NCBI RefSeq assembly: GCF_007625155.1
Contig: NZ_VMNK01000004.1
Location: forward strand, 1-64,000
DNA length: 64,000 nucleotides
DNA from: Denitromonas halophila
GTDB taxonomy: Bacteria; Pseudomonadota; Gammaproteobacteria; Burkholderiales; Rhodocyclaceae
Direction of reading: 5' to 3'
Shown: positions 10,531 through 28,219 of the stretch, one piece after another
Numbering within the stretch: position 1 is the first letter of the stretch
How the letters are laid out: the number at the start of each line of letters is the position of its first letter
Position numbers and translations under genes: made by a program
The notes under the pieces: generated by a model
Databases searched by the model: none
What the model was told of the DNA's origin: nothing
The model's input: the letters and a program-made list of their open reading frames with translations, nothing else

Positions 10531-11847
10531 TTAGAAGAAGCGATACGTGTAGTCGAGGTACAGACGATGATCGCGTTCGTTCTCTTTCACGCCATCCAGA
10601 CGGCCGGTCTTGTCGGACTGGTAGTCGAGGTAGGTGTAGCGAAGCGCCAGGCCTTTGACGACCGGGATCGCGTAGCGCACGTCGAGGGCCCATTCGCTCT
10701 CGTCGGCTTCGCCCAGCGAGGGGACATGACTGTTGCGTGCGCCGGTGCCTTTCTTGTAGCTGAGGGTGGTTTTCAGGCCTTTGATGTAATCCTTCCAGTC
10801 GTAACCGGCCTTGAGCATCCACACCAGTTCGTCACGGTTGGAGAAGTCAGCCAGCACGCCGCCGGTGGGGAAGGCGTTGGTGCCGTGATCGCCGGCGAAG
10901 TTGTCTTCGATCCATGCACCGTCGAACTTGGACAGGGCGCCGCCCAACAGCACGTTGCCAAAGGTCCAGTCGGCCGCCACGTACACGCCGAGGCCGTCAT
11001 TGTCGCTGGCGGTTTTGCCGGCGACCGAACCCGCGACATCTTCGTCGTCGAGTTCGCTGCTTTCCGAGCCGGTCACGAACAGGTCGCCGTCGTCGCGCGA
11101 GGCGTGAACACCGCCGGTCACTTTCAGTTTTGACTTGTTGGCCAGGGCGAAGGTATAGGACGCCACCAGACCGGTCTTGCTCAGGAAGTTGTCGGCCTTG
11201 AGGTATTCGAAGTCGATGCTGAAGGGGCCGGAGTCGTAGCTCACGCCGACCAGACCGATGTACTCGATGTCGCCCTCGGCCGAGCGGTCGGTCTTGAACT
11301 CGTAGAAGTGGGCGTCGGAGCGCGGCGACCATTCGTTGTACATCGCGCCATAGAATTTCAGGCCCTTCATCGGCGTGACGTTCACTGTGCCGCCAGAGAA
11401 GGAGTTGGGAATGGCGCGGCTACCGGAGCTGCTCAGCAGCATGCTCTTGTGCACCTGGCGACCCAGCTTGGCGCTGACCACGTCCTGGTACTTGAGCTTG
11501 ATGAAGGCCTGGCCCAGCTTGCCGAAGGAGTCATGCACATCGCCGTCCTTGTCGACCGACAGGATGTCCGAGGTCAGGCGGCCACTGGCGCCCAGTTCGG
11601 TCACGCTGTAGCCGGACAGGCCGATACCGATGAAGTCCCAGTAGTAGGGCGATTCGTAGTTCAGCTGCAGACCCAGGGCCGACTGGCTGCGATCGTTGGC
11701 GTCGTTTTCGTAGTCGCGGTCAAAGTAAATGCCACGGGCTTTGAGTTCCAGCGAATGGCCTTTGGTGTCGGCGGCCGATGCGGTGCCGGCCAGGGCCAGG
11801 CTTCCGACCAGGATCTGGATCAGTAGGGGAATGCGCTGCTGCTTCAT
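10531..11847 (-). CDS. OprD-family outer-membrane porin
   Basis: 438 residues. A signal peptide (MKQQRIPLLIQILVGSLALAGTASAAD) precedes an 18-strand-type OprD barrel: KARGIYFDRDYEND near the N-terminus, KLGQAFIKLKYQD, LGRQVH, SRAIPNSFSGGTV, GAMYNEWSPRSD, and a C-terminus ending in YRFF with the terminal aromatic needed for barrel assembly. OprD members are selective for basic amino acids or carboxylic acids; OpdH of Pseudomonas takes up cis-aconitate and related tricarboxylates. Position just downstream of the polycarboxylate gene block suggests a tricarboxylate channel, which is inference. Start chosen at the ATG preceded by GAGGAG. Confidence 0.85.
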   Translation of the reverse strand: MKQQRIPLLIQILVGSLALAGTASAADTKGHSLELKARGIYFDRDYENDANDRSQSALGLQLNYESPYYWDFIGIGLSGYSVTELGASGRLTSDILSVDKDGDVHDSFGKLGQAFIKLKYQDVVSAKLGRQVHKSMLLSSSGSRAIPNSFSGGTVNVTPMKGLKFYGAMYNEWSPRSDAHFYEFKTDRSAEGDIEYIGLVGVSYDSGPFSIDFEYLKADNFLSKTGLVASYTFALANKSKLKVTGGVHASRDDGDLFVTGSESSELDDEDVAGSVAGKTASDNDGLGVYVAADWTFGNVLLGGALSKFDGAWIEDNFAGDHGTNAFPTGGVLADFSNRDELVWMLKAGYDWKDYIKGLKTTLSYKKGTGARNSHVPSLGEADESEWALDVRYAIPVVKGLALRYTYLDYQSDKTGRLDGVKENERDHRLYLDYTYRFF

Positions 11848-11954
11848 GGTGTCTCCTCGGTTTGTTCTGGGTATGTCGTCAGGGCTAGGGCTGCGGCAAG
11901 CTGTGTCTGATCCCGCTAGCTTGGCCAAAGTATGGCGAGCTTCATTGATGCTTT

Positions 11955-11993
11955 GAAATGCATTGTCAGTGTCTATTTATGCGATGTTCGCAT
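11955..11993. promoter_or_regulatory. Candidate operator upstream of the porin gene
   Basis: ATGCGA at 11979-11984 and TCGCAT at 11988-11993 form an exact dyad with a 3-base spacer. A box GAAATGCATTG lies at 11955-11965. The same half-site and box, in other arrangements, precede the first prpF gene (13157-13210) and lie between the second prpF and its divergent LysR gene (28281-28319). A LysR-type binding region is a reasonable reading. Confidence 0.45.
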
Positions 11994-12012
11994 CGATAAA
12001 AGGCACGGTTTT

Positions 12013-13110
12013 TCAGGCGGCGGCCTTGGCTTTGTCGAGCGGCACGTGGACGACGCCGATGAACAGCGGGCGCGCGGTACGGACCAGGCCGGCCACCGCG
12101 AAATGCGGCGCATCCGGGCTTGAGCGCGGGTCGAGGCCCATGCGGATGTCGAGGCCGCCGGCGGGGTGCTCGATGCGGATCAAGTCGGGGTCGTCTGCCG
12201 AGCGCCGTGCGTAGCGCGATGGCATCGTGGCTTCAATGCTCGAGGCTGCGGCCAGGCACAGCGCACCCGTTACCGCAAAGGCGGAGTGGCAGGTCCAGGG
12301 GGTGAAATAGCGCGACGTGATGGTGCCGCCATGCGCCGGCGAGGCGACCAGCGCGATCTTTGGCAGGACGGACTGGCGGACATCGCCCATGCCGGCGCGT
12401 AGAGCAATCTCAAGGCGAATGGTTTCGAGTCGGGCTTTCAGGTCGCTGTCGGCGTCGAGTTCCTGCCGGGTTTCATGCCCGGTTCGCCCGAGCGATTCGG
12501 CCGCCACGAAGACCAGCGGCGAGGCGAAGTCGATGCAGGTCACGTCGATGTCGCCGACGCGGTCAATACGCTGCCCGGTTGGAAACAGCTTGCCGGTCTT
12601 GGCGCCGGCCGCGTCGAGAAAGTTCAGCACGATGGGCGCGCCGGTGCCGGGTACGCCGTCAATCCGGGTGTCGCCGTCGTAGGTCACTTTCCCGCCGGGC
12701 GTTTGCACGATGGATTCGACGATCTTGCCGGTGTTCCGGTTGAGGATGCGCAGCGTCGTGACCGGATGCTGAGCCTTGACCAATCCGTTCTCGATCGCAA
12801 ACGGGCCGACGCCGGCCAGCATGTTGCCGCAGTTGGGCATGGTGTCCACGCTCGACTGATCGACCGACACCTGAGCAAACAGGTATTCGATGTCGATGCC
12901 GGTCTGTGTTGACGGGCTGACGATCACCGCCTTGCTGGAGAGGGTGTCGCCACCGCCAATGCCGTCTACCTGGCGGATATGGGGCGAGCCCATGGCCGCG
13001 AGCAGAATCCGGTCCCGCTCGGCCGGCTCGCTTGGTAAATCATGGGCCTGGAAGTACGGCCCCTTCGAGGTGCCGCCGCGCATCAAGGTGCAGGGGATGT
13101 TTTTGAACAT
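12013..13110 (-). CDS. PrpF-family isomerase (aconitate/oxalomesaconate type), copy 1
   Basis: 365 residues of the PrpF family, which has a diaminopimelate-epimerase fold and moves double bonds in polycarboxylates (PrpF on 2-methylaconitate/aconitate, GalD on 4-oxalomesaconate, fungal Adi1 on aconitate). Seen: IPCTLMRGGTSKGPYF at the start, GIGGGDTLSSKAVIV with Lys60, and the second active-site motif PNCGN with Cys94, matching the Lys/Cys pair reported for PrpF. The C-terminal half has PKIALVASPAHGG and IEHPAGGLDI. It is the last gene of the minus-strand run before the porin. A second paralogue lies at 27125-28219 with Ser in place of this Cys. I propose cis- to trans-aconitate isomerisation; oxalomesaconate tautomerase is the main alternative. 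Confidence 0.82.
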   Translation of the reverse strand: MFKNIPCTLMRGGTSKGPYFQAHDLPSEPAERDRILLAAMGSPHIRQVDGIGGGDTLSSKAVIVSPSTQTGIDIEYLFAQVSVDQSSVDTMPNCGNMLAGVGPFAIENGLVKAQHPVTTLRILNRNTGKIVESIVQTPGGKVTYDGDTRIDGVPGTGAPIVLNFLDAAGAKTGKLFPTGQRIDRVGDIDVTCIDFASPLVFVAAESLGRTGHETRQELDADSDLKARLETIRLEIALRAGMGDVRQSVLPKIALVASPAHGGTITSRYFTPWTCHSAFAVTGALCLAAASSIEATMPSRYARRSADDPDLIRIEHPAGGLDIRMGLDPRSSPDAPHFAVAGLVRTARPLFIGVVHVPLDKAKAAA

Positions 13111-13156
13111 GGGTTCCTCGTTGTCCGAACGACTGTGAGCAACCCATTCTGGCGTG

Positions 13157-13210
13157 ATGCGATAAATGTTAGAAATGCAATGTATTGTCGTTTTGGTGCG
13201 TAAATCGCAT
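13157..13210. promoter_or_regulatory. Candidate operator/promoter region of prpF copy 1
   Basis: This 99-bp gap between the dehydrogenase stop and the prpF start contains ATGCGA (13157-13162), GAAATGCAATG (13172-13182) and TCGCAT (13205-13210). The same elements occur upstream of the porin and of prpF copy 2. This suggests a separate promoter for this gene inside the long minus-strand run. Confidence 0.4.
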
Positions 13211-14181
13211 TAATTGGCGCGCCGGTTTTCGTGCAGAAAGGTTCTCACATGCGCGAATGCGTTCTCGAAATAGGCCTCGTAGGTGTCGTGCTCGACAAAG
13301 CCGAGGTGGGGCGTGCACAGAATGCGAGGATGGCTCAGATAGGCCTGCACGCCGGTCGGCTCATTTTCGAACACGTCGAGCGCGGCAAAACCTGGCCTAC
13401 CGGCTGCCAGTGCGTTGAGTACGGCACCGGGCGCGACGAGCTCGGCGCGGCTGGTGTTGACCAGCAGGGCGTGCGGTGGCATGGCGGCCAGGTGCTCGGC
13501 GGTGACGATGTGCCGTGTGTCGGGTGTCATCCGCAAATGCAGGCTGAGCACATCGGCCTGTGAGAAAAAGTGCTGGCGGTCGGCGATAAAGTGGTCACCC
13601 GCCTGCTCGGCGGCGCCGCGTGAGCCCTCGCGCCCATGCGCGATCACCCGCATGCCGAAGGCGCGGCCGAAGCTCGCCACCCGTGCGCCGATGCGTCCGT
13701 AGCCCCAGATGCCGAGCGTGCGGCCATGGAGCACGGTGCCCAGGGCTTCGTCTTCGCGCCGCTCGGCGCTGCGCTGCCAACGCCCGGCGTCGAGCTGGCG
13801 GACGTAGGGCACCAGGCGCCGCGAGGCGGCCAATATCAGCGCCCAGGTCAGCTCGGCCGGGGCGATCGGATTGCCGCTGCCGTCGCGCACTTCAACCCCA
13901 TGCCGTGCGCAGGCGTCGAGGTCGATGCAGCCGGCCAAGCGTCCGGTCTGGACGATCAGCTCAAGCTCGGGCAAGGCGGCGATCACCGCGGCGGTGATGG
14001 TGGTGCGCTCGCGGATCAGCACCAGGCAACGGGTGCCGCGTAGTGCCGCGATGAGTGCGGCCTCGGTGTCGATGGGCTCGTGCAGCACCTGCAGGCGGGC
14101 ATCGATGCCGTCGAGCAGGCGTGCGGCGTTGAGTCGCGACACGACGCCCTGATAGTCGTCCAGTACGGTGATTTGGTTCAT
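13210..14181 (-). CDS. D-2-hydroxyacid dehydrogenase family protein
   Basis: 323 residues. An NAD-binding Rossmann domain is marked by LGIWGYGRIGARVASFGRAFGM. The catalytic region includes LHLRMTPDTRHIV (substrate Arg) and the general acid His in CTPHLGFVEHDTYEAY, with the acidic residue in ALDVFENEP. These enzymes interconvert 2-oxoacids and D-2-hydroxyacids, or 3-phosphoglycerate in SerA. The gene sits 28 bp after the MFS gene, in the tcu-containing run, so it may handle a hydroxy-acid side product or substrate such as a citrate analogue; no specific reaction can be read from sequence. The ATG start and full-length motifs suggest an intact gene. Confidence 0.85.
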   Translation of the reverse strand: MNQITVLDDYQGVVSRLNAARLLDGIDARLQVLHEPIDTEAALIAALRGTRCLVLIRERTTITAAVIAALPELELIVQTGRLAGCIDLDACARHGVEVRDGSGNPIAPAELTWALILAASRRLVPYVRQLDAGRWQRSAERREDEALGTVLHGRTLGIWGYGRIGARVASFGRAFGMRVIAHGREGSRGAAEQAGDHFIADRQHFFSQADVLSLHLRMTPDTRHIVTAEHLAAMPPHALLVNTSRAELVAPGAVLNALAAGRPGFAALDVFENEPTGVQAYLSHPRILCTPHLGFVEHDTYEAYFENAFAHVRTFLHENRRAN

Positions 14182-14208
14182 GTGTCGGTCTCCGGAAGTG
14201 TCGCCAGG

Positions 14209-15510
14209 TCAGTCCATCGTGCGTGGCGCAATGCCTTGCGCGGCATATAGCGGTCGCAGGTGCACCCGCATGAATTCGAGGCGCTGATAAAAGCGCGCGC
14301 CCACTGCCACCAGCAACAGCCCGGCCGACAGCAAGGCGGCGTCGGGACCGATCGCATCGGCGACCCAGCCCACCATCAAGCCGCCGACCGCGGCGGCGCC
14401 GAGATTGGCTGCTGTGTAGAGTGCCAGCACGCGTCCGCGCAGCCCCTCGGGCAGAATCGTTTGCAGGATGGTGTTGCTCGAGGCGTTGCACACGATCATG
14501 CTGAAACCGAGCAGGAACAGCTGGGCCAGGGCAAGCCATAGCTCGGCGGTGAGTGCAAAGCCGGTGAGCGCGGTGCCGGCCAGTACGCTGGCGTGAAGAA
14601 TGCTGCCGGTGAGGCCGCGCACCGACCGGCGCGACATCAGATACACCGAGGCCACCAGCGCCCCGGCCCCCGCGCTGCCGAGCAGCACGCCGAGGGTGTT
14701 GGGCCCGCCCTGAAACACGTCGCGGGCGAAGGCCGGCATCATCGGCAGATAGCTGGCGGCGAAGAAATTCACCAGCGCAACCTGGATCAGCAACATCCGC
14801 ACGGGCACGCTGCCGCGGACATAGGCGAGGCCTTCGCGCAGGGCAGCGCGAAATGACGCCGGCGGGGGGCGCGACGAGGGGCTGTCGATGTGTCGAAGCG
14901 CCAGAATCAAAGCCAGGAAGGACAGGCCATTGACCGCGAAACACACCGCCGCCGAGGTGGCGGCGAGCAAGAGCCCGGCGGTCGGTGGGCCGACGAAGCG
15001 GGCCACATTGAAGGTCAGCGTGTTGAGTGCGATGGCGTTCGGAATGTCGTCGCGCCGGGCCACAAGCTGCCCGGCGAGCGAATGCCGTAGCGGCGCGTCG
15101 AAGCTGTTGAGCACGCCCAGCACGCCCGCCGCGACCAGAATCAGCCAGCGTTCGAGCCAGCCGAAGTAGGTGAATACCGCCAGGAAGATCGCCTGCGCCA
15201 GCATCAGCGTCTGGATCTGCAGCATCAGGCGTTTGCGGTCGCTGCGGTCGATGACGATGCCGGCGAAGGGCGCCACCAGCAGTTGCGGGGCGTTGCTCAG
15301 AAAGGCCACGGCGCCCAGCAGCACGGTTGAGTCGGTGAGTCGATAGACCAGCCAGCCGAGCGCGACCTGTTGAATCCAGGTGCCGACCAGCGACAGCAAC
15401 TGGCCGAAGAAATAACGCCGGTAGGCCGGCGAGGCCAGCGCGCGCCAGGCCTGGCCACGCGCCGGCTTCGCCGGCCCCGGACGTTCAGCGTCGTGTGAGG
15501 GCTTAGCCAT
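14209..15510 (-). CDS. MFS transporter (MFS_3/EntS-like)
   Basis: 433 residues with about 12 TM helices. It begins with [29 protein letters not shown] and has the inter-helix motif [14 protein letters not shown], both typical of the MFS_3/DHA3 group that includes the enterobactin exporter EntS. The ATG at 15510 overlaps the end of tcuB (ATGGCTAA), so translation is coupled; longer starts upstream would run into tcuB. In Salmonella the tricarballylate importer TcuC is also an MFS protein but of the citrate symporter type, so this is not an evident TcuC. It could export or import a carboxylate or a pathway by-product. Confidence 0.82.
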
Positions 15511-16672
15511 CGCTCCCGACGCCGACCGGATTGGGGCGCCGCTTTTCGATCGCCCACTTGAGCAGTGCCGCGCTGCGGTAAAAGCCGTGGGCAAACTTGC
15601 CGTAGGGCATGGTCAGAAAGAGGCCCATCACCACGCCCAGATGCACCGCCAGCAGCAGGCCCATGGCGGAGGTATCGCGTCCGGCGAGCAAGGCCAGGCC
15701 GGTCAGGCTGGTGAAGAACAGCAGGGCGATGAAGCCGCGGTCCATCGGTTTTTGTGCTGCGTCGCCATGCTCGGGGTGACGCTTCAGGTTCAGCCAGAAC
15801 AGACCGGCCGGGCCGATCAGCAGGCCGATGCCGCCCACGGTGCCGAGCACCACCGGCAGGCTGGTGAAGGCGTAGGGGGCTTCCCAGCCAAACACGTAGT
15901 GATACAGCGTGGCCACACTGGTGGCGGCAAAGCACAGCATGAAGCCGTAGAAGGTCAGGTGGTGGTAACGCCGCCGCGCCAGGGTGAAGGCGTCGTCGGC
16001 GTTGTTGCAGCCCTGGCCGTGACCGCCGTCGAGGTAGGTCAGGCGCAGCACATCATGCGTGGTCTCCGCAATCGCCGCGCCGCTGGCGGCGCCGGGGGCC
16101 GCTTCGCGCCAGAAGCGCGCGACGCCGATGCCCAGCGCCAGCGCCGCAAACAGGAACACCGGCGCGAACATCGAGACCAGCAGGTTGTGCGGAAAAATGG
16201 CGTAGAAATCGCCGGCCAGCGGCGCATGAAACAGCGTGCCCTGGATTATCAGCGCGAGCACCAGGAACAGCGCCAGGCCGCCCGCCACGGACAGCGCGAC
16301 GGTCACGCCATTGTTGCGATACAAGTTGCCGAAGCCGGCCGGCCAGGCGAAATCCGAGTAGGTTCGGGCGCGCACCGTGGCCATGGCTTGCGGCACATTG
16401 ACCGCGAATTCATGTGGCGGGGCGTACTGGCAGGCGTGCAGGCAGGCGCCGCAGTTGTGGCACAGATTGGCCAGGTAGTGCACATCGGCCTTGTCGAAGG
16501 CCAGGCGCCGGGTCATGGCGGGAAACACCGCGCAAAAGCCTTCGCAGTAACGACAGGCGTTGCAGATTTGCAGGATGCGGCCGACTTCGGCCTCGTCGGC
16601 GTTGAGCGCCGGCAGATTGCGTCCGGCGGCCAGATCAGTGGCTTCGCGGGCGAGGGCTTCAAGCGATTGCAT
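15503..16672 (-). CDS. tcuB: Tricarballylate utilisation protein B (TcuB-like, CitB family)
   Basis: 389 residues. The N-terminal ferredoxin-like part has two cysteine clusters, [11 protein letters not shown] and [17 protein letters not shown], that would bind iron-sulfur clusters. The rest is membrane-embedded with several helices and histidines ([38 protein letters not shown]). TcuB of Salmonella reoxidises the reduced FAD of TcuA and passes electrons to the quinone pool. The ATG at 16672 lies within the last codons of tcuA and has AAGGAGA at good spacing. The pair tcuA-tcuB is diagnostic for tricarballylate oxidation. Confidence 0.9.
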
Positions 16673-18083
16673 GGGATTCTCCTTGGCGCGCGGCAGCCGC
16701 GGCGTGAGCGCCGGCGATGCGGCCGAAGGTGGTGCCAATGGTCATGCCGACCCCGGCGGTGTAGCCCTTGCCGAGCACGTTGCCGGCCATCATTTCGCCG
16801 GCCACGAACAGGTTGGGGCTCGGCGCATCCGAAAAATGGACGGCGGCCTGCTCATTCACTTTCAGCCCGAGGTAGGTGAAGGTGATGCCGGGCTTGAGCG
16901 CATAGCCGCGGAAGGGCGGGGTGTCGATCGGCAGCGCCCAGTGGGTCTTGGCCGGCGACAGGCCTTCGGTGTGGCAGTCGTCCTGCACGGTGTGGTCGAA
17001 GGTGCCGACGTGGCAGGCGGCGTTGTACTCGCCCACGGTGCGCACAAAAGCCGCTTCATCGATGCCGAGCTGGCGGGCGAGCTCTTCGAGCGTGTCCGCC
17101 GTGGCGCCGGGAAACACCGGCGGCATGAAGCGGCCGTTGGCCTTGGCGTCGATGATCGAGAAGCCGATCTGGCCGGGCTGCTGCGCCACCAGACGGCCCC
17201 AGATCGCGTAGCGCTTGGGCCAGAAGTCTTCGCCTTCGTCGTAGAAACGCTCGGCGTGTTTGTTGACCACGATGCCCAGCGACACACAGTCGATGCGGGT
17301 GCAGATGCCGCCGTCGTAAAGCGGGGCGCGGGCGTCGATGGCCACGCAGTGCGACTGCGAGGGGTCGCCGATCATGTCGGCGCCGGCCTCGATCATGGCC
17401 TTGAGCAGCACGCCGCGGTTGAAGCGGGTGCCGCGGATGGCGAAGTTGTCGGCCGGCCACTCCCCGTTTTCATTTTGCCCCCAGGCCTCGCGCAGCCATT
17501 CGCGGTTGGACTCGAAGCCGCCGGCGGCCATCACACAGGCGCGCGCAGCGATGCGTTCGTCGCCAACCCAGGCGGCGCGGAACACGCCGTTTTCCAGTTC
17601 GATCCGGTCGACCGGCGCTTCGTAGCGGATGCGCACGCCGAGCGCTTCGGCGCTGCGGTAGTAGGCATTCACCAGCGCCTTGCCGCCGCCCATGAAGAAG
17701 GCGTTGGTGCGCGACAGGTGCAGGGTGCCGGACAGCGAGGGCTGAAAATTGACGCCATGCTTGCGCATCCAGTCGCGGCAGTGCGAGGACTCGCGGATCG
17801 CCAGGCGGGCGAGCTTTTCGTTGGTGACGCCGCCGGTGACCTTGAGCAGGTCTTGCCAGAATTCTTCTTCGGGGTAGCGCTCGGTCAGCACGTCCTGCGG
17901 GGCGTCGTGCATGCAGCGCAGGTTGCGGGTGTGGCTGGAGTTGCCGCCGCGCCATTCGCGCGGTGCGGCTTCGAGCAGCAGCACCGAGGCGCCGGCTTCG
18001 CGCGCCATCAGCGCGGCGCACAGCGCGGCGTTGCCGCCGCCAATGACCAGCACGTCGACGGTGCCGGGATGCTTTTCTTTCAT
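16659..18083 (-). CDS. tcuA: FAD-dependent tricarballylate dehydrogenase (TcuA-like)
   Basis: 474 residues of the fumarate reductase/succinate dehydrogenase flavoprotein family. Seen: dinucleotide-binding [38 protein letters not shown] near the flavin, GGFESNREW, and the C-terminal FAD-binding [26 protein letters not shown]. TcuA oxidises tricarballylate to cis-aconitate. It is followed by tcuB with a 14-base overlap and preceded by a LysR gene in the same direction, as in other tcu clusters. ATG 18083 is chosen over one 33 bases earlier because GGAG lies at suitable spacing. A broader fumarate-reductase-like substrate is possible, but the TcuB partner supports the name. Confidence 0.88.
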
Positions 18084-19364: not shown

Positions 19365-20716
19365 TTCACCGCAGCGGCCCGAGCCAGCACTTTGTCGACC
19401 ATCACGCCGGCCTGACCAAGGTAGTTGGCCGGGTCGCAGAGTTTGGCCAACGCGGCGCGGTCGAGGTGTACATTGATTTCCGGATGCTCGGCCAGGATGT
19501 CCAGCAGCGGACGATCGGTCTTGATTGCCTGGCGGCACAGGTCATACACCAGATCGTGCGCGTACTCGCGACCGATGTAGGCGCCGAGACCCATCATCAC
19601 CGCCTCGGACATGACCAGGCCCTTGGTCAGGTCGATGTTGGCGCGCATGTTGCCTTCGTCGACTTCCAGCCCTTCGAGCACGAAGCGCGTCTGCTTGAGT
19701 GCGCCAGCGAGCAGGCAGAAGGACTCGGGCAGGGCGATCCATTCAATCTCCCACGGACCGGTCGAGCGCTCGTGGTCGGCGATCATCGCGTCCATCAGCG
19801 CGGCGGAATGCTGGCGCACCACCGACACCGCGGCGTGGATGTAGCAGCTGGAGATCGGGTTGCGCTTTTGCGGCATGGTGCTGCTCGAGCCGCGGCCGGG
19901 TGCAAAGGGCTCATACACCTCGGCCACTTCGTGCTGCATCATCAGTTTGACGTCCATCGCGATCTTGCCCAGCGAGCCGCCGACCAGTCCGAGGAAGGCG
20001 CCGACTTCGGCGATGGTGTCGCGCACGGTGTGCCAGGCGATGTCCGGTTGGGCCAGACCCAGTTCTTCCATCAGCCCGGCCTGGGTTTCCATGGCACCGG
20101 TTTCGATCGAGGCCAGGGTGCCGCAGGCGCCGCCGAATTCACCCATCAGCACGCGCGGGCGCAGCTGCGCCAGACGCTCGCGGTGGCGTTCGATGCCGGC
20201 CAGGATGGCGGCGGTCTTGAAGCCGAAGGTGACCGGAATCGCCTGCTGCAGGTTGCTGCGGCCGATCACCGGGGTGTCGCGGTAGCGCTTGGACAGCGAC
20301 ACCAGCGCGGCGGAGATGGCGGCCAGTTCGCCGTCGATGATCTCCAGGCCTTCGCGGATCTGCATCACCGTGGCGGTGTCGGTGATGTCCTGGGTGGTGG
20401 CGCCCCAATGCACGAACTCGCCGAGCTTGTCGCGGCACAGCTGGTTGATCTGGGTGACCACGCCGAGCACCGGGTAACCGATGCGCTCGGTCTGCTCGCG
20501 CAGGCGGTCCATGTCGATCTTGTCGATATGGCAGTTGCCGATGATCTCGTCCGCGGCTTCCTGCGGAATGATGCCGAGCCGGCCCTGGACCACCGCCAGC
20601 GCACGTTCGATTTCAACGTAGTGTTTGGTGCGGTTTCGGTCGGACCACACCTCGCGCATGGCGTCGGTGCTGAAGATGTTGCCGAAGATGCTTGAGTCAA
20701 TGATGCTCGCGGCCAT
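19361..20716 (-). CDS. Fumarase/aspartase-superfamily lyase, candidate trans-aconitate decarboxylase
   Basis: 451 residues of the adenylosuccinate lyase/3-carboxymuconate cycloisomerase superfamily. Seen: EFVHWGATTQDITDT (about 101-115), GRSNLQQAIPVTFG (152-165) and the signature loop GSSSTMPQKRNP (276-287), plus an ADSL-type C-terminal domain. Adenylosuccinate lyases have GRTH at the second site with a catalytic His; here it is GRSN, so classic purine chemistry is unlikely. Ustilago Tad1, a trans-aconitate decarboxylase producing itaconate, belongs to this superfamily. The gene directly follows the CoA-transferase, hydratase and lyase of an itaconate-type pathway and shares its neighbourhood with two PrpF isomerases and TcuAB. 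I therefore propose trans-aconitate to itaconate; carboxymuconate cycloisomerase-like or C-N lyase activity remain alternatives. Confidence 0.7.
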   Translation of the reverse strand: MAASIIDSSIFGNIFSTDAMREVWSDRNRTKHYVEIERALAVVQGRLGIIPQEAADEIIGNCHIDKIDMDRLREQTERIGYPVLGVVTQINQLCRDKLGEFVHWGATTQDITDTATVMQIREGLEIIDGELAAISAALVSLSKRYRDTPVIGRSNLQQAIPVTFGFKTAAILAGIERHRERLAQLRPRVLMGEFGGACGTLASIETGAMETQAGLMEELGLAQPDIAWHTVRDTIAEVGAFLGLVGGSLGKIAMDVKLMMQHEVAEVYEPFAPGRGSSSTMPQKRNPISSCYIHAAVSVVRQHSAALMDAMIADHERSTGPWEIEWIALPESFCLLAGALKQTRFVLEGLEVDEGNMRANIDLTKGLVMSEAVMMGLGAYIGREYAHDLVYDLCRQAIKTDRPLLDILAEHPEINVHLDRAALAKLCDPANYLGQAGVMVDKVLARAAAVK

Positions 20717-20766: not shown

Positions 20767-21588
20767 TCAGTTCGGTTCGCCTGCGTGGCTGCGGGCGATA
20801 ATGGCCTGTGCCTTGAGCACCACCGGCCGGTCGATCATTTTTCCGTCGAGCTGCACCGCGCCTTCGGAGGCTTCGGCGGCGGCCAGCACGCGATGCGCCC
20901 AGGCCTGGTCTTCGGCGCTGGGTCGGCAGGCGGCGTGAATCCAGTCCACCTGCTTGGGGTGGATGCACATCTTTGCGCCGAAGCCGAAGGCCCGGGCGAA
21001 GGCGAAGTCGGCGAGCACGCGCGCTTCGTCGGTGACCGAAGGGGTGACCCCGGCCACCGGTGAAGGCAATTCGGCGCATCGCGCGGCGATGGCGATGCGC
21101 GATGAGGCGTAGGCCAGCCCGGCGTCGTCGCCCGACAGGTCGAGGTCGACGGCATAGTCCAGCGTGCCAAAGGCCAGCCGGGCGACGCCCTCGGTGGTGG
21201 CGATCTGGTCGACGTTGTGGATGCCGCGAGCGGTTTCGACCAGGGCCAGTACCTGCGCCTGGGTGGCCGTGGCGCGGACGAGGTCGATCTGCTCGCGCCA
21301 TTCGCTTTTGGGCAGCATCACCACGCCGATGCCGGACTCGCGGATCATCGTCAGATCGTCGGCAAACCACTCGGACTGTGTGTCGTTGATGCGCACGGTG
21401 ATGCGCTTGGCGGCATCACCGTGCGATGCCACCCAGTTGGCGATGGCGTCGCGGGCGCCGGCCTTGTCGGCCGGCACGACCGCGTCTTCGAGATCAAGAA
21501 TGATCACGCCGGCATCGGTGGCGAAGGCTTTGTCGAAGCGTTCCGGGCGGTTGCCGGGCACAAAGAGGTAGCTGATGGGCTGGGTCAT
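20767..21588 (-). CDS. CoA-ester lyase of the CitE/HpcH family (citramalyl-CoA lyase candidate)
   Basis: 273 residues with the TIM-barrel CitE-like fold. It opens with SYLFVPGNRPERFDKA and DAGVIILDLEDAVVPADK, has the substrate Arg in TVRINDT, the metal-binding acidic residues in LALVETARGIHNV and FGTLDYAVDLDL, and the family segment GFGAKMCIHPKQVDWIHAA. Such enzymes cleave malyl-, methylmalyl- or citramalyl-CoA. In the itaconate pathway Ccl splits (S)-citramalyl-CoA into pyruvate and acetyl-CoA. It lies 18 bp after a family III CoA-transferase and close to a MaoC-like hydratase, the same trio as Ict-Ich-Ccl in Pseudomonas. Malyl/beta-methylmalyl-CoA lyase is the alternative. Confidence 0.82.
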   Translation of the reverse strand: MTQPISYLFVPGNRPERFDKAFATDAGVIILDLEDAVVPADKAGARDAIANWVASHGDAAKRITVRINDTQSEWFADDLTMIRESGIGVVMLPKSEWREQIDLVRATATQAQVLALVETARGIHNVDQIATTEGVARLAFGTLDYAVDLDLSGDDAGLAYASSRIAIAARCAELPSPVAGVTPSVTDEARVLADFAFARAFGFGAKMCIHPKQVDWIHAACRPSAEDQAWAHRVLAAAEASEGAVQLDGKMIDRPVVLKAQAIIARSHAGEPN

Positions 21589-21606: not shown

Positions 21607-22788
21607 TCAGATCACGCCGGCGGACTTGAGCTCGGCGACCTGCTCGGCCGTGTAGCCGAGTTCGGCGAGGATGACGGCGGAGTGCGCGCCCAGCGTGGGC
21701 ACCGGGTCCATGCGCGGATCGCCTTCTTCCCACGAGCCCGGCGGCAGCAGGGCCGGCACCGTGCCGACCGAGGTTTCGATGTTGCGCCAGCGTTTGCGCG
21801 CCTTGAGCTGCGGGTGATCCCACACGGCATGCATGTCGTTGACCTGCGCGTTGGCGATGCTCGCGGCGTCGAGGCGTTCGACCACCTGCTCGGCGCTCAG
21901 ATCGGCAAAGGCGTCGACGATGATCTGGCGCAGTTCCACGCGGGCGGCGCTGCGGCGGGAGTTGGTCGAGAATCGCTCCTCGCGGGCCAGCTCGGGCTGC
22001 AGCAGGACCTTGGCGCAGAAACCGGCCCATTCGCGCTCGTTCTGCAGGCCGAACATCACCGTCTTGCCGTCGCCGGCCGGGAAGGGGCCGTAAGGGTAGA
22101 TGGTGGCGTGGCTGGCGCCGGTGCGCGGCGGTGGGGCGGCGCCGTCAAAGGCGTAGTAGAGCGGGTAGGTGGTCCACTCGACCAGGCTCTCGAGCATCGA
22201 GATGTCCAGGTGCTGGCCGCGACCGGTCTTCTGCCGCTGCATCAGGGCGGCGAGGATGTTGGTGTAGGCGTACATGCCGGCGGAGATGTCGGCAATCGAC
22301 GGGCCGGCCTTGCAGGGCTCGTCTTCGGTGCCGGTGACCGACAGAAAGCCCGATTCGCTCTGGATCAGCAGGTCGTAGGCTTTCTTGTCGCGATAGGGGC
22401 CATCAGCGCCGTAGCCGGAAATATCGCAGACGATGATCTCGGGCTTGATCGCCGACAGCGCTTCGTAGGACAGACCGAGCCGGGCCGCCGCGCCGGGGGC
22501 GAGGTTCTGCACCACCACGTCGGCTTCCTCGGTGATCAGCTTGAGGAGTGCCTTTTGTGCTTCGGGATGCTTCACATCCAGCGTCAGCGATTCTTTGGAG
22601 CGGTTGATCCACACGAAATGCGAGGCGATGCCGCGTACGCGTTCGTCGTAGCCGCGGGCGAAGTCGCCCACGCCGGGGCGCTCGACCTTGATCACGCGCG
22701 CGCCCAGATCGGCGAGCTGGCGGGTAGCGAAGGGCGCCGCGATGGCGTGTTCGAGGGTAACGACGGTAATGCCTTCAAGGGGTCTCAT
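21607..22788 (-). CDS. Family III CoA-transferase (CaiB/BaiF), itaconate CoA-transferase candidate
   Basis: 393 residues. The N-terminus MRPLEGITVVTLEHAIAAPFATRQLADLGARVIKVE and the segment SKESLTLDVKHPEA are family hallmarks. The catalytic aspartate is Asp139 in KAYDLLIQSESG, which forms the acyl-aspartyl anhydride intermediate. GRGQHLDISMLES and a C-terminal domain of normal length complete the enzyme. Members move CoA from succinyl-CoA or acetyl-CoA onto carboxylic acids. The gene lies between the hydratase (10-bp gap) and the lyase (18-bp gap), so activation of itaconate or a close relative such as mesaconate is the natural reading. Confidence 0.85.
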   Translation of the reverse strand: MRPLEGITVVTLEHAIAAPFATRQLADLGARVIKVERPGVGDFARGYDERVRGIASHFVWINRSKESLTLDVKHPEAQKALLKLITEEADVVVQNLAPGAAARLGLSYEALSAIKPEIIVCDISGYGADGPYRDKKAYDLLIQSESGFLSVTGTEDEPCKAGPSIADISAGMYAYTNILAALMQRQKTGRGQHLDISMLESLVEWTTYPLYYAFDGAAPPPRTGASHATIYPYGPFPAGDGKTVMFGLQNEREWAGFCAKVLLQPELAREERFSTNSRRSAARVELRQIIVDAFADLSAEQVVERLDAASIANAQVNDMHAVWDHPQLKARKRWRNIETSVGTVPALLPPGSWEEGDPRMDPVPTLGAHSAVILAELGYTAEQVAELKSAGVI

Positions 22789-22798
22789 TGTTCATTCC

Positions 22799-23644
22799 TC
22801 ACTTGATCACCGCGGTGGCTTCCATGGTCAGCCAGCCTTCGTGATCTTTCGCCCACAGTCGGAAGGTCTTGCCGTCGGCTTGCGGCTCACCGCAGACGAA
22901 GAAGTGGTTGATGTCGAACACCGGGCGAACGGCGCGGAACTCGTAGCTGGCCAACTCGGCATCGGGCAACTGATGACGCAGCAGGTCGAGCAGCATGGTG
23001 GCCACCATCGGGCCGTGCACGATCAGGCCGGGATAGCCTTCCACCTCGGTCACATACTTGCGGTCGTAGTGGATGCGGTGGCCGTTGAAGGTCAGCGCCG
23101 AGTAGCGGAACAGCAGCACGTCGTCGGGCACCCACTGCTTTTCCCAGGTGGACGTTGCCGGCGCGGCCTTGGGCGGCGGGGCGACGTCGTCGGGCTTGGC
23201 CGCCTCGCGATATACGATGTCGTGGAACTCGGTCAGCGCGATGTCGGTTTCGCCGTCGCGGCAGATTTCGTGACGCACCTTGACGAAGACCAGCGGGCCC
23301 GTGCGGCCGCTCTTTTCGGTCACGTCGTGGATGGTCGAGGTGCGCGTCATGGCGTCGCCGATGCGCAGCGGCTTGTGGAAGGTGAATTGGCTACCGGCCC
23401 ACATGCGGCGCGGCAGCGGCACTGGCGGCAGAAAACCGCCGCGCTTGGCGTGGCCGTCCGGGCCGATTTCCGACTGGCGGTGCAGCGGAAGAAAGTACAG
23501 CCAGTGCCACAAGCCGGGCAGCGGCGTGCCGGCGGCGGGGCGCTCTGCCGGGCGGTCAAACGTGGCCGACAAGGCGGCGTAGGGGGTGGCAGTGGCGATG
23601 TCGGAGACAGCTTCCGAGCGGCCGATCCAGTCCTTGAGATTCAT
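22799..23644 (-). CDS. MaoC/FAS1-like dehydratase family hydratase (itaconyl- or mesaconyl-C4-CoA hydratase candidate)
   Basis: 281 residues with a double hot-dog layout. The N-terminal half has LPGLWHWLYFLPLHRQSEIGPDGHAKRGGFLPP and MWAGSQFTFHKPLRIGD, the C-terminal half has LFRYSALTFNGHRIHYDRKY and GYPGLIVHGPMVATMLLDLL, where RYSALTFNxHRIHYD carries the hydratase His/Asp residues. This matches Ich (itaconyl-CoA hydratase) and mesaconyl-C4-CoA hydratase. It is the first of the transferase-hydratase-lyase trio and begins 112 bp after the Tct permease gene. Together the trio would turn itaconate into pyruvate and acetyl-CoA. Confidence 0.82.
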   Translation of the reverse strand: MNLKDWIGRSEAVSDIATATPYAALSATFDRPAERPAAGTPLPGLWHWLYFLPLHRQSEIGPDGHAKRGGFLPPVPLPRRMWAGSQFTFHKPLRIGDAMTRTSTIHDVTEKSGRTGPLVFVKVRHEICRDGETDIALTEFHDIVYREAAKPDDVAPPPKAAPATSTWEKQWVPDDVLLFRYSALTFNGHRIHYDRKYVTEVEGYPGLIVHGPMVATMLLDLLRHQLPDAELASYEFRAVRPVFDINHFFVCGEPQADGKTFRLWAKDHEGWLTMEATAVIK

Positions 23645-23756
23645 GGTGTTGCGTCCTCCGTCGGGTACGGGCGGGGCACCTGCCTGTCGCCCGCCAGTGC
23701 GGGCGGACAGGTGCGGGATCAGAAAAAGCGTGTTGAAATCAAATGACCCATCGGGC

Positions 23757-25769
23757 TTATTTGAGCGGCCAGGGCATCTCGACGTAGTGCTGCAGCAGGC
23801 CAGCCGGGAAGTCGAGCGTCAGGTAGTGGCCCAGCGTGCTCATGAAGGCGATGCACAGACCGGTGTAGAGCAGGCTGCGGGCCACGCCGAGCTGGGTGCG
23901 CACCATCAGGAAGGTCGTGATGAAGATCGCGATCGAGATGATGAAACCGAGCACCGAGGTCATGCCGAAGAGGAACACGAACCAGCCCACGGACGGCCAG
24001 ACGGTGGTGCCGTCGTCCGTGCCCTTGGCCTTGGCTGCCAGTTCCTGGTCGAAGTGCGCGCTGTGCCCTGGCTTGGCCACGACCAGCATCATCACCATGT
24101 AGCCGGTGAAGGCGACCATCAGCGCCGAGGTGTAGAACGGGAATACCGACCCCAGGAAGCTCAGCGGTGCGCTGCTCATCACGCCGTACAGGAAGGTGGC
24201 CAGCAGCAACACGGCAAACACGATTTGCGGACGACGCTCGGCCTTGGTGGCACCTCCGTGCACCGGGCGGTCGGTTTCTTCGCCGCGGGCCTCTTTGGTG
24301 ACCGCGCCTTCTTCAGACACCCGGCTGCGCAGGGCCATCAGCGTGGAGGCGATGGTCAGCGCGCCGATGATCAGCACGCCCGGGCGTTGAACGAATTCCC
24401 AGCCGTAGAACTGCAGCGCCTGATACAGGTAGTTCTCTGCCTGACTCGAAAGTACAAAGCCGATCAGGAAGGCGGGCCGTGGCCAGCCGAAGCGTCGCAG
24501 GAAGATGCCGACGATACCCACCGCGAACAGCACCAGCAGATCGGTCAGATCGCGTCGCGCCTGGAAGGCGGCGAAGCAGATGATCATGATCATGAACGGC
24601 GCGATCAGGTTGAAGGGCACGAAGGTCAGTCGGGCGATGGGCACGGCCAGGAAGAAGCAGATGGCGGCGCCAACGATGCTCGAGAAGGCCAGCGTCCAGG
24701 CGATGGTGTAGGTCAGCTCGAGGTCGGTGGTGACCATCGAGGGGCCGGGTTGGAGCCCGAGCAGGACCATGCCGCCGAGGAACACCGCCATGCTGCCCGA
24801 ACCGGGAATGCCGAACAGCAGGGTTGGCATCAGCGCGCCGCCTTGCAGCGCGTTGTTGGCCGATTCGGGCGCGATCACGCCCTTGATCTCGCCCTTGCCG
24901 AAGTTGGACGAATCCTTGCTGGTCTGCGCGGCATGGCCGTAGGCGATCCAGTCCACCACGCCGCCGCCGAGGCCGGGGATGGCGCCAATGAAGGTGCCCA
25001 GCGCCGAGCAACGCAGCACCAGGAACCAGTTCTTGAAGGTGTCGCGAACGCCTTGCAGCCAGCCAGCGCCCAGGCCGGAATCGGCGGCAATCGGGCGGGA
25101 GCGGCGGATCAGGTCGGCGATCTCGGGGATGGCAAACAGGCCCAGGCCGATGATCACCAGCGGCACGCCGTCGACCAGATAGTCGATACCCAGATCAAAG
25201 CGGCTTTCACCGGTGGCGGGGGCTGCGCCAATCGCGCCAACCATCAGGCCCAGGCCGCAAGCGACGACCCCGCGCATGATGCTTTCGCCGGCCAGCACAC
25301 CGACCACCGACAGCCCGAGCAGGGCGAACATGAACAGTTCAGCGGTGGTGAAGGACAGGATCAGCGGCTTGGCGACCACCACAAAACCGGTCAGCAGCAG
25401 CGCGCCGAACACGCCGCCCAGCAAGGAGGCAGAGAACGCGGCGCTCAGGGCACGGGCGGCCTGGCCTTTTTTGGCGAGTGGGAATCCGTCCAGCACGGTG
25501 GCCTGACTGGCGCTTGAGCCGGGGATACCCATGAGAACCGAGGTGAAGGTGTCGCCGGTGGGGATCACGGCAACCATGCCCACGAGCATGGCCAGTGCGG
25601 AGACCTGGTCCATACCGTAAATGAAGGGCATCAGCAGCGACATGCCTGCGATGCCGCCCAGGCCGGGCAGAATGCCCACGCCGAGGCCAACAACAATGCC
25701 GAGCAGCATGTAGGCGAAGTGCTGAAACGAGAGGAGGCCGACAAAGGCGCTCTGCATGGCTTCTAGCAT
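23757..25769 (-). CDS. Fused TctA-TctB permease of a tripartite tricarboxylate transporter
   Basis: 670 residues. Residues 1 to about 505 are a TctA large permease with 10-12 helices and the family motifs GLGVGILPGLGGIAGMSLLMPF, PTGDTFTSVLMGIPGSSASQAT, GTFIGAIPGLGGGVVDWIAYGHA and APESANNALQGGALMPTLLFGIPGSGSMAVFLGG. A charged linker (about 505-545) follows, then four helices typical of TctB ending near PWPLK. TctA and TctB are usually separate genes. Together with the TctC gene upstream, 70 bp away, this forms a complete sodium- or proton-driven, binding-protein-dependent importer. The substrate is inferred to be a tri- or dicarboxylate such as tricarballylate, aconitate or itaconate. Confidence 0.9.
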   Translation of the reverse strand: MLEAMQSAFVGLLSFQHFAYMLLGIVVGLGVGILPGLGGIAGMSLLMPFIYGMDQVSALAMLVGMVAVIPTGDTFTSVLMGIPGSSASQATVLDGFPLAKKGQAARALSAAFSASLLGGVFGALLLTGFVVVAKPLILSFTTAELFMFALLGLSVVGVLAGESIMRGVVACGLGLMVGAIGAAPATGESRFDLGIDYLVDGVPLVIIGLGLFAIPEIADLIRRSRPIAADSGLGAGWLQGVRDTFKNWFLVLRCSALGTFIGAIPGLGGGVVDWIAYGHAAQTSKDSSNFGKGEIKGVIAPESANNALQGGALMPTLLFGIPGSGSMAVFLGGMVLLGLQPGPSMVTTDLELTYTIAWTLAFSSIVGAAICFFLAVPIARLTFVPFNLIAPFMIMIICFAAFQARRDLTDLLVLFAVGIVGIFLRRFGWPRPAFLIGFVLSSQAENYLYQALQFYGWEFVQRPGVLIIGALTIASTLMALRSRVSEEGAVTKEARGEETDRPVHGGATKAERRPQIVFAVLLLATFLYGVMSSAPLSFLGSVFPFYTSALMVAFTGYMVMMLVVAKPGHSAHFDQELAAKAKGTDDGTTVWPSVGWFVFLFGMTSVLGFIISIAIFITTFLMVRTQLGVARSLLYTGLCIAFMSTLGHYLTLDFPAGLLQHYVEMPWPLK

Positions 25770-25839
25770 TGGAAACTCCAGTATTGAGTGGCTGGTGCGT
25801 CAGGGCGGCCGATGGTGGTTACCCTGACGGCGGTCAGCG

Positions 25840-26943
25840 TTAGAAGCGCGCGTTGTACTCTTTCTCGAGCAGCGCGCGGACCCAGTCACGGGCTTTGGGG
25901 TCGATGGTCGTGCCTTCCTTGAAGAGCGACTCGCCGGCCTTGTCGGTCAGTTGCTCGTAACCGCCCAGTGCCTCGACTTTCGCGGCTTGGTACTCCGGAT
26001 CGAGCTTCATCTTGCGCACGGCGGCGCGGTAGGCCTCGACGATGTTGTCAGGCGTGCCCTTGGGCAGCACCAACAGCTTCTGTGCCGGGAAGCCGGCGAT
26101 CAGGAAGGACTTGAAAGCTTCCCACTCGGTGCCCGACGGCTTCTTGCCGGTGACCATCTCGATGGCTTCGCCGATGTGCGGCAGCTCCGGGAAGTTCGGG
26201 TCGCGGATGAGCTTGCCGTCGTCGTCCGTGGCGCCCCAGCTGAACAGCGGAACGGCTTTACCTTCTTGCACGATGGGCAGCGAGCTCTTCAGGTAGGCCG
26301 AGGTGGTCTGGTAGTCGATGTTGGCTTCGCCGCGCTCGAAAGCCAGGCGGCCTTCGCCCCGACTCTTCATGCCGAACACATGCTGCACATCGAGGCCAAG
26401 CAGACGGAAGCCGAGCAGCGGAACGAGGTCGAGCGAGGTGGCGCCCTGGCTGCCGTAGACCAGACGCTCGCCCTTGAGTTTGCCCAGGTCGGCCAGCGAT
26501 TTCACGCCAAAGCTGCTGCTGATGTAGGCCACACCGCCGGTCGGTGCGGCGAGCACGACTTTCCAGTCCTTGTAGTCGTACTTCACACGCGGATCATTGA
26601 GCAGGTAGGGGAACTGCGTTGAGCCCGAGGTGCCCAGGATGGACAGACCGTCCGGCTTGGCGCGGGAAGCGAACTGGCTGGCGCCGGTAATCGAGCCGCC
26701 GCCGGGCTGGTTCTTGACGACCACGGTCGGCTGGCCGGGCAGGTGCTTGGACAGGAAGGGTGCGTTGAAGCGCGCCCAGGTGTCGGAACCGCCGCCCACG
26801 CCAAACGGGATGACGAATTCGATGGTCTTGCCGCTGAAGTCGACCGCGTCGGCCATGGCCGGTACGGGCAAGATGAAGGCGGCGGTTGCGAGCGCCACGG
26901 ACATGCCCAGGAAATTGCGTCGAGGGGTAATGTTGTTGGTCAT
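25840..26943 (-). CDS. TctC-family periplasmic binding protein
   Basis: 367 residues. A Tat-like or Sec signal peptide (RRNFLGMSVALATAAFILPVPAMADA) is followed by the Bug/TctC fold: GKTIEFVIPFGVGGGSDTWARFNAPFLSKHLPG, VVKNQPGGGSITGA and a C-terminal domain with LLVLPKGTPDNIVEAYRAA. The protein captures a carboxylate in the periplasm and delivers it to the TctAB permease encoded next. ATG 26943 is supported by AGGAGG at ideal spacing. The RR in the signal region suggests possible Tat export. It is 181 bp downstream of prpF copy 2. Confidence 0.88.
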   Translation of the reverse strand: MTNNITPRRNFLGMSVALATAAFILPVPAMADAVDFSGKTIEFVIPFGVGGGSDTWARFNAPFLSKHLPGQPTVVVKNQPGGGSITGASQFASRAKPDGLSILGTSGSTQFPYLLNDPRVKYDYKDWKVVLAAPTGGVAYISSSFGVKSLADLGKLKGERLVYGSQGATSLDLVPLLGFRLLGLDVQHVFGMKSRGEGRLAFERGEANIDYQTTSAYLKSSLPIVQEGKAVPLFSWGATDDDGKLIRDPNFPELPHIGEAIEMVTGKKPSGTEWEAFKSFLIAGFPAQKLLVLPKGTPDNIVEAYRAAVRKMKLDPEYQAAKVEALGGYEQLTDKAGESLFKEGTTIDPKARDWVRALLEKEYNARF

Positions 26944-27124
26944 GAGTGCTCCTCCTGATGTGTCGTTCAAGTCGTTGTTGCTATGTGGTGAAAGCCGTTG
27001 GGCTTGGCGTGCCAGACCTCTGTGGATCTTCGGGCTGTGAGTAAAAATCGTGTTGTCGTGCTCATGCGTTTTTCTCCTCGCATGCCATCTTTTTTGTGGG
27101 CATGCGGCGCGGTAATGATGAAGA

Positions 27125-28219
27125 TCATGCGATCTGGGGCTCGAGGCGCTCCGGCACCAGCACGACACCGCTGAGCAATGGCCTGGCGGTGGTGATCAGG
27201 CGGGCCTGTTTGAACACGGGGATGCCTTGATCGTCGTGCTCGGAAATGTCGATATCGAAGGCCATCGTGCCGCTCGGGTGTTCGATGATGATATGGCCGA
27301 GTTTTCGGACATCGAGCTCGACCAGGTCCTCGGCAATCGAGCCGGTCACATGGCAGGCGGCGGCCAGTGCCAGCGCGCCTGAAATTCCGAAGGTGGCATG
27401 GCACCATTTCGGCGAGAAATACCGCGCGGCGATGCTGCCGCCGTGGCGCGGCGACGCGACAATGGCGATCTTGGGCAGGGCGACGCTCTCGCTGTCTTCG
27501 AGCCGCATCTGCCTGGCGGCCTCGAGGCGAATGGTTTTCAGGCGATTCGAAAATTCCGTATCGGCGTCGAGTTCGGCTTTGGATTCGTGCCCGGTCTTGC
27601 CGAGGGCTTCGGCTTTGACCAGCACCAGGGGAATCGCGCAATCAATACAGGTGACTTCAACGCCGCAGATTTCTTCGCGAGCCTTGCTGGTAGGCAGCAA
27701 CACGCCGGTGCGGGTGCCTGCCGGGTCGAGAAAGCGCAGTTCGATCGGCGCAAAGCTGCCGGGCACGCCATCGACCTGGCACCGACCGTCATAGGTCAGT
27801 TTACCGCCGGGCGTCTGGACGATGACCTCGGCGATCTTGCCGCTATTGAGGTTGAGCACGCGGACCGTGGTGGTCGGTGAGCTCGTCGGGATCAACCCTG
27901 CGTCAATGGCGAAGGGCGCGACGCCGGAGAGCATGTTGCCGCTGTTGGGCCGCACATCAACAAAGTTGCGCGCCACCGACACCTGAGCAAACAGGTGCTC
28001 GAGATCGGCATCGGGCCGGCTCGACGGGCCGACGATCACCACCTTGCTGCTCTGGCTATCGCCGCCACCCATGCCGTCGACCTGTCGCAGATCAGGAGAC
28101 CCCATGGCCGCCAGCAGCAGGCGATCGCGCGCTGCCGTTGAAGCGGGCAAGTCCTGCGCGAGGAAGAACAGCCCCTTTGAGGAACCGCCTCGCATCAGAA
28201 CACAGGGTATTTTCTCCAT
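27125..28219 (-). CDS. PrpF-family isomerase, copy 2, with Ser replacing the active-site Cys
   Basis: 364 residues, clearly paralogous to the gene at 12013-13110. It starts IPCVLMRGGSSKGLFF, has GMGGGDSQSSKVVIV with Lys59, then PNSGN with Ser93 where copy 1 has PNCGN. C-terminal segments PKIAIVASPRHGGSIAARYFSP and IIEHPSGTMAFDI are conserved. The family isomerises polycarboxylates by proton transfer; a Cys-to-Ser change in one of the two acid/base positions may alter face selectivity or substrate. It is the first gene of the minus-strand run and is transcribed away from a LysR gene. GGAGAC lies at good spacing before the ATG. A role as aconitate isomerase (Adi1-like) or methylaconitate-type isomerase is inferred. 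Confidence 0.82.
   Translation of the reverse strand: MEKIPCVLMRGGSSKGLFFLAQDLPASTAARDRLLLAAMGSPDLRQVDGMGGGDSQSSKVVIVGPSSRPDADLEHLFAQVSVARNFVDVRPNSGNMLSGVAPFAIDAGLIPTSSPTTTVRVLNLNSGKIAEVIVQTPGGKLTYDGRCQVDGVPGSFAPIELRFLDPAGTRTGVLLPTSKAREEICGVEVTCIDCAIPLVLVKAEALGKTGHESKAELDADTEFSNRLKTIRLEAARQMRLEDSESVALPKIAIVASPRHGGSIAARYFSPKWCHATFGISGALALAAACHVTGSIAEDLVELDVRKLGHIIIEHPSGTMAFDIDISEHDDQGIPVFKQARLITTARPLLSGVVLVPERLEPQIA

Follow-up and report, generated by a model that had tools for sequence, protein, structure and literature searches.

A minus-strand gene cluster of Denitromonas halophila encoding a likely route of trans-aconitate catabolism through itaconate

Does a gene cluster of Denitromonas halophila, in which a relative of a fungal trans-aconitate decarboxylase lies beside genes for itaconate breakdown, encode a bacterial route from trans-aconitate to pyruvate and acetyl-coenzyme A (acetyl-CoA), and is tricarballylate fed into it? 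The cluster lies within the first 64,000 nucleotides of contig NZ_VMNK01000004.1 (hereafter the window), in a 4.39-Mb genome of 34 contigs, where open reading frames and family scans placed 14 genes, all on the minus strand, between positions 10531 and 28219 (Table 1). The families named in a preliminary description of this DNA were all found on this one block, whilst its inventory had omitted the MFS transporter, the 2-hydroxyacid dehydrogenase and both LysR genes. We consider it likely that the cluster serves the catabolism of trans-aconitate via itaconate, and that in this lineage it has been extended to tricarballylate.

Comparison of the lyase with the PDB returned Ustilago maydis trans-aconitate decarboxylase 1 (Tad1) as its first five distinct sequences (517-526 bits), followed by the ‘fumarate lyase’ 3c8t (456 bits) and PcaB 1re5 (366 bits), with amino acid identities of 56.0%, 49.2% and 41.1%, respectively. 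In a maximum likelihood tree of 39 rows, Tad1 grouped with a Komagataeibacter plasmid lyase and 27 bacterial rows, including that of the window (support 100/98), apart from the 3c8t type (seven rows, 100/98) and the PcaB type (three rows, 100/100). In a wider alignment, 28 bacterial clade lyases and 11 of the 3c8t type were each fixed (90% or more) at 23 columns, but on different residues; Tad1 agreed with the bacterial clade at 16 of these columns, with 3c8t at 2 and with neither at 5. The deposited Tad1 chains vary among themselves at G123, I315, S320 and R360, differences which we read as engineered variants, and the window lyase retains G123, S320 and R360 with Ala at I315. Both G123 and R360 are also present in PcaB and 3c8t, whereas position 320, Ser in Tad1 but Ala in its chain 9h4h, has Ser in all 28 bacterial clade lyases, Ala or Gly in all 11 of the 3c8t type and Gly in all three of PcaB. 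By its sequence, the lyase is a member of the Tad1 clade and of neither the PcaB type nor the 3c8t subfamily, which bears out the likeness to Tad1 drawn in the preliminary description, and it probably decarboxylates trans-aconitate to itaconate. The Komagataeibacter plasmid lyase (L092:8001-9422), which is basal in the Tad1 group, stands alone amid transposase and toxin-antitoxin genes.

Were the lyase instead 3-carboxy-cis,cis-muconate cycloisomerase (PcaB) and the PrpF proteins 4-oxalomesaconate tautomerases, the locus would belong to aromatic degradation. The best NCBIfam model for the lyase is indeed PcaB, relatives of the lyase carry the label pcaB in public annotation, and PrpF2 clears the tautomerase cut-off (Table 1); nevertheless, the lyase scored 487 bits where one PcaB model demands 595, and 342 where another demands 356. 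No match to the intradiol dioxygenase family PF00775 was found in the genome at 0.001, whilst 4 of 14 controls have one, and since this enzyme would supply the PcaB substrate, the result counts against a PcaB role. The best match to LigK in the genome reached just 58 of 304.5 bits and contained an internal stop. Furthermore, the tautomerase model cannot separate the two functions, because the best match of U. maydis Adi1 is likewise an oxalomesaconate tautomerase in the table of the paper concerned (PMC4720413; for this and every article cited below, statements reflect part of the published text). Given the missed PcaB cut-offs, the lack of an intradiol dioxygenase and the weak, interrupted LigK match, this candidate was rejected as highly improbable.

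The enzymes predicted to act on itaconate were compared with a Pseudomonas aeruginosa plasmid locus (L124) holding LysR, MaoC, acyl-CoA dehydrogenase, VOC, MmgE/PrpD, CaiB, CitE and TRAP genes, whose MaoC and CitE match 8khg and 8khl letter for letter over the segments compared. The CoA transferase, previously proposed to be an itaconate enzyme (Ict), was 68.5% identical over 391 amino acids to that of this itaconate cluster, in keeping with the proposal; Ich and Ccl were 49.4% (253 amino acids) and 40.8% (262 amino acids) identical to their counterparts. By way of comparison, the itaconate CoA transferases characterised from Cupriavidus necator and P. aeruginosa share 60% (PMC12290011). The sole PDB matches of Ich were the P. 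aeruginosa itaconyl-CoA hydratases 8khg and 8huc (5e-69), and the top match of Ccl was P. aeruginosa 8khl (1.7e-47). Searched at 1e-5, the genome showed no further Ich; nor was there another Ccl, a 29% match at 4e-9 aside. Family scans found neither methylsuccinyl-CoA dehydrogenase (Mcd) nor MmgE/PrpD among the window genes, and across 90 loci each occurred in one.

These comparisons bear on whether the CoA branch might serve another C5 or C6 acid, such as mesaconate, citramalate or a methylated aconitate, which the lyase would make by different chemistry from trans-aconitate decarboxylation, as may be the case in the 3c8t subfamily. The lyase superfamily is catalytically diverse, relatives of Ich were found in other settings, and the sister subfamily that includes 3c8t has different neighbours (GntR and dicarboxylate symporter genes in several loci, class II fumarase in two). 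We consider such a role unlikely in view of the close identity of Ict to the P. aeruginosa enzyme, the clade-diagnostic residues of the lyase, and the substrates of the characterised Cupriavidus necator itaconate CoA transferase, which shares 60% identity with its characterised P. aeruginosa equivalent PA0882 and takes itaconate and methylsuccinate, not mesaconate (<0.1) (PMC12290011).

Catabolism of trans-aconitate via itaconate was examined further through the gene neighbourhoods of other lyases. Relatives were drawn from a scan of genome contigs, with the best 80 of 375 kept, and genes within 10 kb of the lyase were counted in the 51 loci having at least 9 kb on either side (full-flank loci), which are mutually related and hence not independent trials. 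Linked genes were ich (47), ict (46), ccl (39), prpF (39) and a lysR1 relative (45), with ich or ict present in 48 loci, the whole triad in 37 and the triad plus prpF in 30. The ccl count is too low, as one locus (L064) was scored by a distant match 5 kb off although another HpcH/HpaI gene directly follows its lyase. The linkage of lyase, triad and PrpF first noted in the window recurs in other genera, and because the order ich-ict-ccl-lyase repeats in many of these, the association goes beyond chance. Plasmids of Azospirillum, Bradyrhizobium and Variovorax have the gene set along with a DctA gene, the CoA-transferase gene being present though unannotated in the Azospirillum record. At ten loci of the sister subfamily (L093-L098 and L114-L117, 8 kb flanks), ich, ict, ccl and prpF were found in none at 1e-6. 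Members of that subfamily are often annotated pcaB, and at the edge of one of their loci (L096) lies a gene for a subunit of a family I CoA-transferase.

The genes named tcuA and tcuB in the preliminary description were confirmed as such, in that both products exceed their curated cut-offs (Table 1) and are 80.5% and 68.6% identical, respectively, to those of Salmonella plasmid R27, LysR2 being 47% identical to TcuR; the window MFS transporter had no match above 60 bits in the R27 tcu locus. In 14 of the 51 full-flank loci, tcuA and tcuB both lay no more than 10 kb from the lyase; these comprise 10 of the 13 whose lyase is at least 83% identical and 4 of the 38 others. With so few linked loci outside the close relatives, the core of the system would appear to run from trans-aconitate to pyruvate and acetyl-CoA with Tcu as a lineage add-on, and the strict linear chain from tricarballylate that had been put forward is not general.

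The same counts allow for two separate neighbours, one (prpF1-tct-ich-ict-ccl-lyase) directing trans-aconitate through itaconate and the other (tcuR-tcuAB-MFS-prpF2-oprD) converting tricarballylate to cis-aconitate for the tricarboxylic acid (TCA) cycle, bypassing itaconate. Such a division, which we hold to be a credible prospect somewhat short of even, would suit the 258-base gap and separate TcuR-like regulator that divide the halves, the few loci with tcuAB near the lyase, and Salmonella tcuRAB, which stands alone. It is opposed by the linkage of the halves in most close relatives, and by the properties of trans-aconitate, an inhibitor of aconitase that, as the favoured isomer, makes up 88% at equilibrium (PMC8050072). 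Within the Tcu unit, the D-2-hydroxyacid dehydrogenase and MFS_3 genes recur in 10 and 7, respectively, of the 13 close full-flank loci (10 kb). Elsewhere, TctC and an FAD_oxidored (PF12831) protein are encoded at L118:5204-7725, beside a clade lyase that has no triad, and possibly offer another way to aconitate.

The two PrpF proteins of the window are 53.8% identical to each other, and a third copy is encoded elsewhere in the genome. In related loci, the PrpF2 type has the motif PNCGNM in 50 of 50 matches, and the matching Lys column is retained, as judged by eye, in both PrpF1 and PrpF2. The bacterial aconitate isomerases TarA/TbrA (PMC11495376) and U. maydis Adi1 (PMC4720413) are members of the PrpF superfamily, hence aconitate isomerisation is proposed for PrpF2 at least, which is the best candidate aconitate isomerase of the locus; the product of prpF1 is possibly an aconitate isomerase or a diverged paralogue. 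The membership of both in the PrpF family (PF04303), as first described, was upheld, whilst the assumed cis-to-trans direction toward itaconate is a tentative reading, in that the isomerases of this family are reversible and in known bacteria channel trans-aconitate to the TCA cycle (PMC11495376), and in PrpF1 the position expected to carry the catalytic Cys is occupied by Ser.

Amongst the PrpF matches, 27 of 65 were fused in frame, with no stop, to a full TctC domain (e.g. L033:7862-9997 and L091:13850-15874). All 27 extensions match that of L033 at 1e-10, and the Pfam check covers L033 and L091. On reading the junctions, approximately 16 keep an internal start, in most cases accompanied by a GAAGGAGAC-like site, together with a signal-peptide-like stretch, whilst approximately 11 (Variovorax, Cupriavidus and Massilia types) have no internal start, which would leave a periplasmic binding domain in the cytoplasm.

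Several observations weigh against a trans-aconitate route through itaconate, or against individual parts of it. The fork uniting Tad1 with the 27 bacterial rows is weaker (90/69) than the group as a whole, and the Tad1 branch is long (1.53). Ccl falls below the curated RipC cut-off (148 of 375 bits), and Ich-like proteins with 52-58% identity occur outside such clusters, at L119 without triad genes and at L120 in a P450 cluster, so that the homology of Ich alone leaves its substrate unfixed. Three full-flank loci (L033, L053 and L066) have neither ich nor ict, although L033 and L053 nonetheless have a LysR gene and a PrpF-TctC gene before the lyase; clade lyases without the triad were also found at L069 and, within 8 kb, at L118 (73% identical). 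No PrpF gene lies within 10 kb in 12 of the 51 full-flank loci. The PrpF1 type has PNSGNM in 14 of 15 matches, with no motif found in the fifteenth (35% identity), and in Shewanella, PrpF with a C107S substitution had no activity that could be measured in vitro and did not support growth on propionate (PMC5690661).

In the favoured route from trans-aconitate through itaconate, the Tct transporter and OprD would import the acids, TcuAB would, going by knowledge of the family, oxidise tricarballylate to aconitate, and one or both PrpF proteins may interconvert cis- and trans-aconitate, such that either isomer could enter. The lyase, on strong homology, would yield itaconate and CO2 from trans-aconitate. 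By homology to characterised enzymes, Ict would form itaconyl-CoA from itaconate with the CoA of succinyl-CoA, Ich would hydrate this to (S)-citramalyl-CoA, and Ccl would cleave the latter to acetyl-CoA and pyruvate. A decarboxylating route would bypass aconitase, which trans-aconitate inhibits, and removal of trans-aconitate would also hold an aconitase inhibitor low; in Pseudomonas putida, U. maydis tad1 and adi1 together yield itaconate (PMC8050072). What the sequences establish is the gene content, the clade of the lyase, the identity of Ict and the linkage, whilst the enzyme activities, the direction of the PrpF reaction and the need for it are here inferred.

The coordinates of the cluster, with start codons chosen from upstream sequence, are given in gene order in Table 1. 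Intergenic gaps from tctAB through the lyase range from 10 to 112 bases, and tcuA/tcuB and tcuB/MFS are overlapping pairs. Gene spacing suggests two units, prpF1 to lyase and lysR2 to oprD. A scan for promoters and terminators performed no better than shuffled sequence (0 promoters versus 2.2 expected; 13 terminators versus 12.6).

Table 1. Genes of the cluster and the adjoining regulator, with predicted products and the matches on which these are based
Gene	Position	Strand	Predicted product	Supporting matches
lysR1	28322..29239	+	Divergent LysR regulator of the first operon, head-to-head with prpF1	PF03466 and PF00126
prpF1	27125..28219	-	PrpF-family isomerase-like protein, Ser for catalytic Cys	PF04303 342 bits; oxalomesaconate tautomerase model 436 (cut-off 440)
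tctC	25840..26943	-	Tripartite tricarboxylate transporter solute-binding protein	PF03401 39-40 bits
tctAB	23757..25769	-	TctA with TctB-like C-terminal part	PF01970 393 bits; PF07331 27.0 bits (cut-off 29.1, just missed)
ich	22799..23644	-	MaoC-like, probable itaconyl-CoA hydratase	PF13452 45.5 bits; PF01575 21.6 (cut-off 27, missed)
ict	21607..22788	-	Family III CoA transferase, probable itaconate CoA transferase	CoA_transf_3 354 bits
ccl	20767..21588	-	CitE-like, probable (S)-citramalyl-CoA lyase	HpcH/HpaI 118 bits
lyase	19361..20716	-	Fumarase superfamily, probable bacterial trans-aconitate decarboxylase	PF00206 and PF10397
lysR2	18167..19102	-	TcuR-like regulator	47% over 306 amino acids to TcuR of plasmid R27
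tcuA	16659..18083	-	Tricarballylate dehydrogenase	NF006130 771 bits (cut-off 369)
tcuB	15503..16672	-	Electron-transfer partner of TcuA	NF011607 698 bits (cut-off 524)
MFS_3	14209..15510	-	MFS_3 transporter	PF05977 223 bits
2-hydroxyacid dehydrogenase	13210..14181	-	D-2-hydroxyacid dehydrogenase	PF02826 165 bits
prpF2	12013..13110	-	PrpF-family isomerase, Cys motif	PF04303 381 bits; oxalomesaconate tautomerase model 487 (cut-off 440)
oprD	10531..11847	-	OprD-type outer-membrane porin	PF03573 116 bits

The lyase was found in 5 of 10 genomes of the genus and in 8 of 61 relatives at 1e-100, seven of these at 74% identity or more, and it is 99-100% identical to the lyases of Denitromonas ohlonensis and a Zoogloeaceae bacterium. 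A class-wide draw returned the organism’s own genome only (1 of 369, E <= 1e-120), hence the distribution was drawn from an order-wide draw and the genome-contig scan. The order-wide draw gave matches in 11 of 399 genomes at 1e-150, six at 73-100% identity and five at 52-54%; four of the latter five were retrieved and are nearer to 3c8t. The occurrence of the lyase is patchy, as would be that of a transferable catabolic trait.

A broader proposition, on which we are evenly divided, is that soil- and plant-associated bacteria make itaconate as an obligate intracellular intermediate during growth on the plant acids trans-aconitate and tricarballylate, that theirs is a third kind of itaconate gene cluster through which bacteria become a source of itaconate, and that fungal Tad1 branched off from this family of bacterial catabolic enzymes. 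Should the favoured route hold, bacteria would be a new source as well as a consumer of itaconate, the step from trans-aconitate to itaconate being so far known from corn-smut fungi, and trans-aconitate would have a second bacterial fate beside isomerisation. The apparent counterpart of the cluster in C. necator would then have an explanation, the widespread label ‘pcaB’ would be put right, and bacterial decarboxylases would become available for making itaconate.

A search of one open-access library of papers, mostly judged from titles and the openings of abstracts, found no report of a native bacterial trans-aconitate decarboxylase. All parts of the cluster come from known families, and as far as that library was searched, their combination and the bacterial route are new. 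A 2025 paper met what looks like this cluster in C. necator and, in the part of its text considered here, left the pathway open (PMC12290011); we take it to be of the same type because Cupriavidus sp. IDO (L083), rather than H16 itself, shows ich-ict-lyase without ccl by tblastn. A related idea with another gene set is the hypothesis that purple bacteria run the itaconate pathway in reverse to cis-aconitate with aconitate decarboxylase (PMC8307300).

Amongst known systems, U. maydis Adi1/Tad1 resembles the window in pairing a PrpF-family isomerase with a Tad1-clade lyase; the fungal system is biosynthetic and secretory (PMC4720413), whereas that of the window belongs to a bacterium and is tied to the uptake of acids and the breakdown of itaconate. 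Bacillus velezensis TarRAB, by its description, likewise employs a LysR regulator and a PrpF-superfamily protein for trans-aconitate, yet isomerises it to cis-aconitate for the TCA cycle, with no decarboxylase or CoA enzymes in the account considered (PMC11495376). The itaconate/methylsuccinate cluster of P. aeruginosa and C. necator has Ict, Ich and Ccl in common with the window; it carries Mcd and MmgE/PrpD for methylsuccinate and, from the portion of the article at hand, no lyase or PrpF (PMC12290011), whilst the window type instead has the lyase, PrpF and Tct. Salmonella TcuRABC is matched closely in TcuA and TcuB and more distantly in the TcuR-like regulator, whereas the window MFS transporter is not detectably related to it and the tcu genes of the window are linked to the lyase and the CoA triad.

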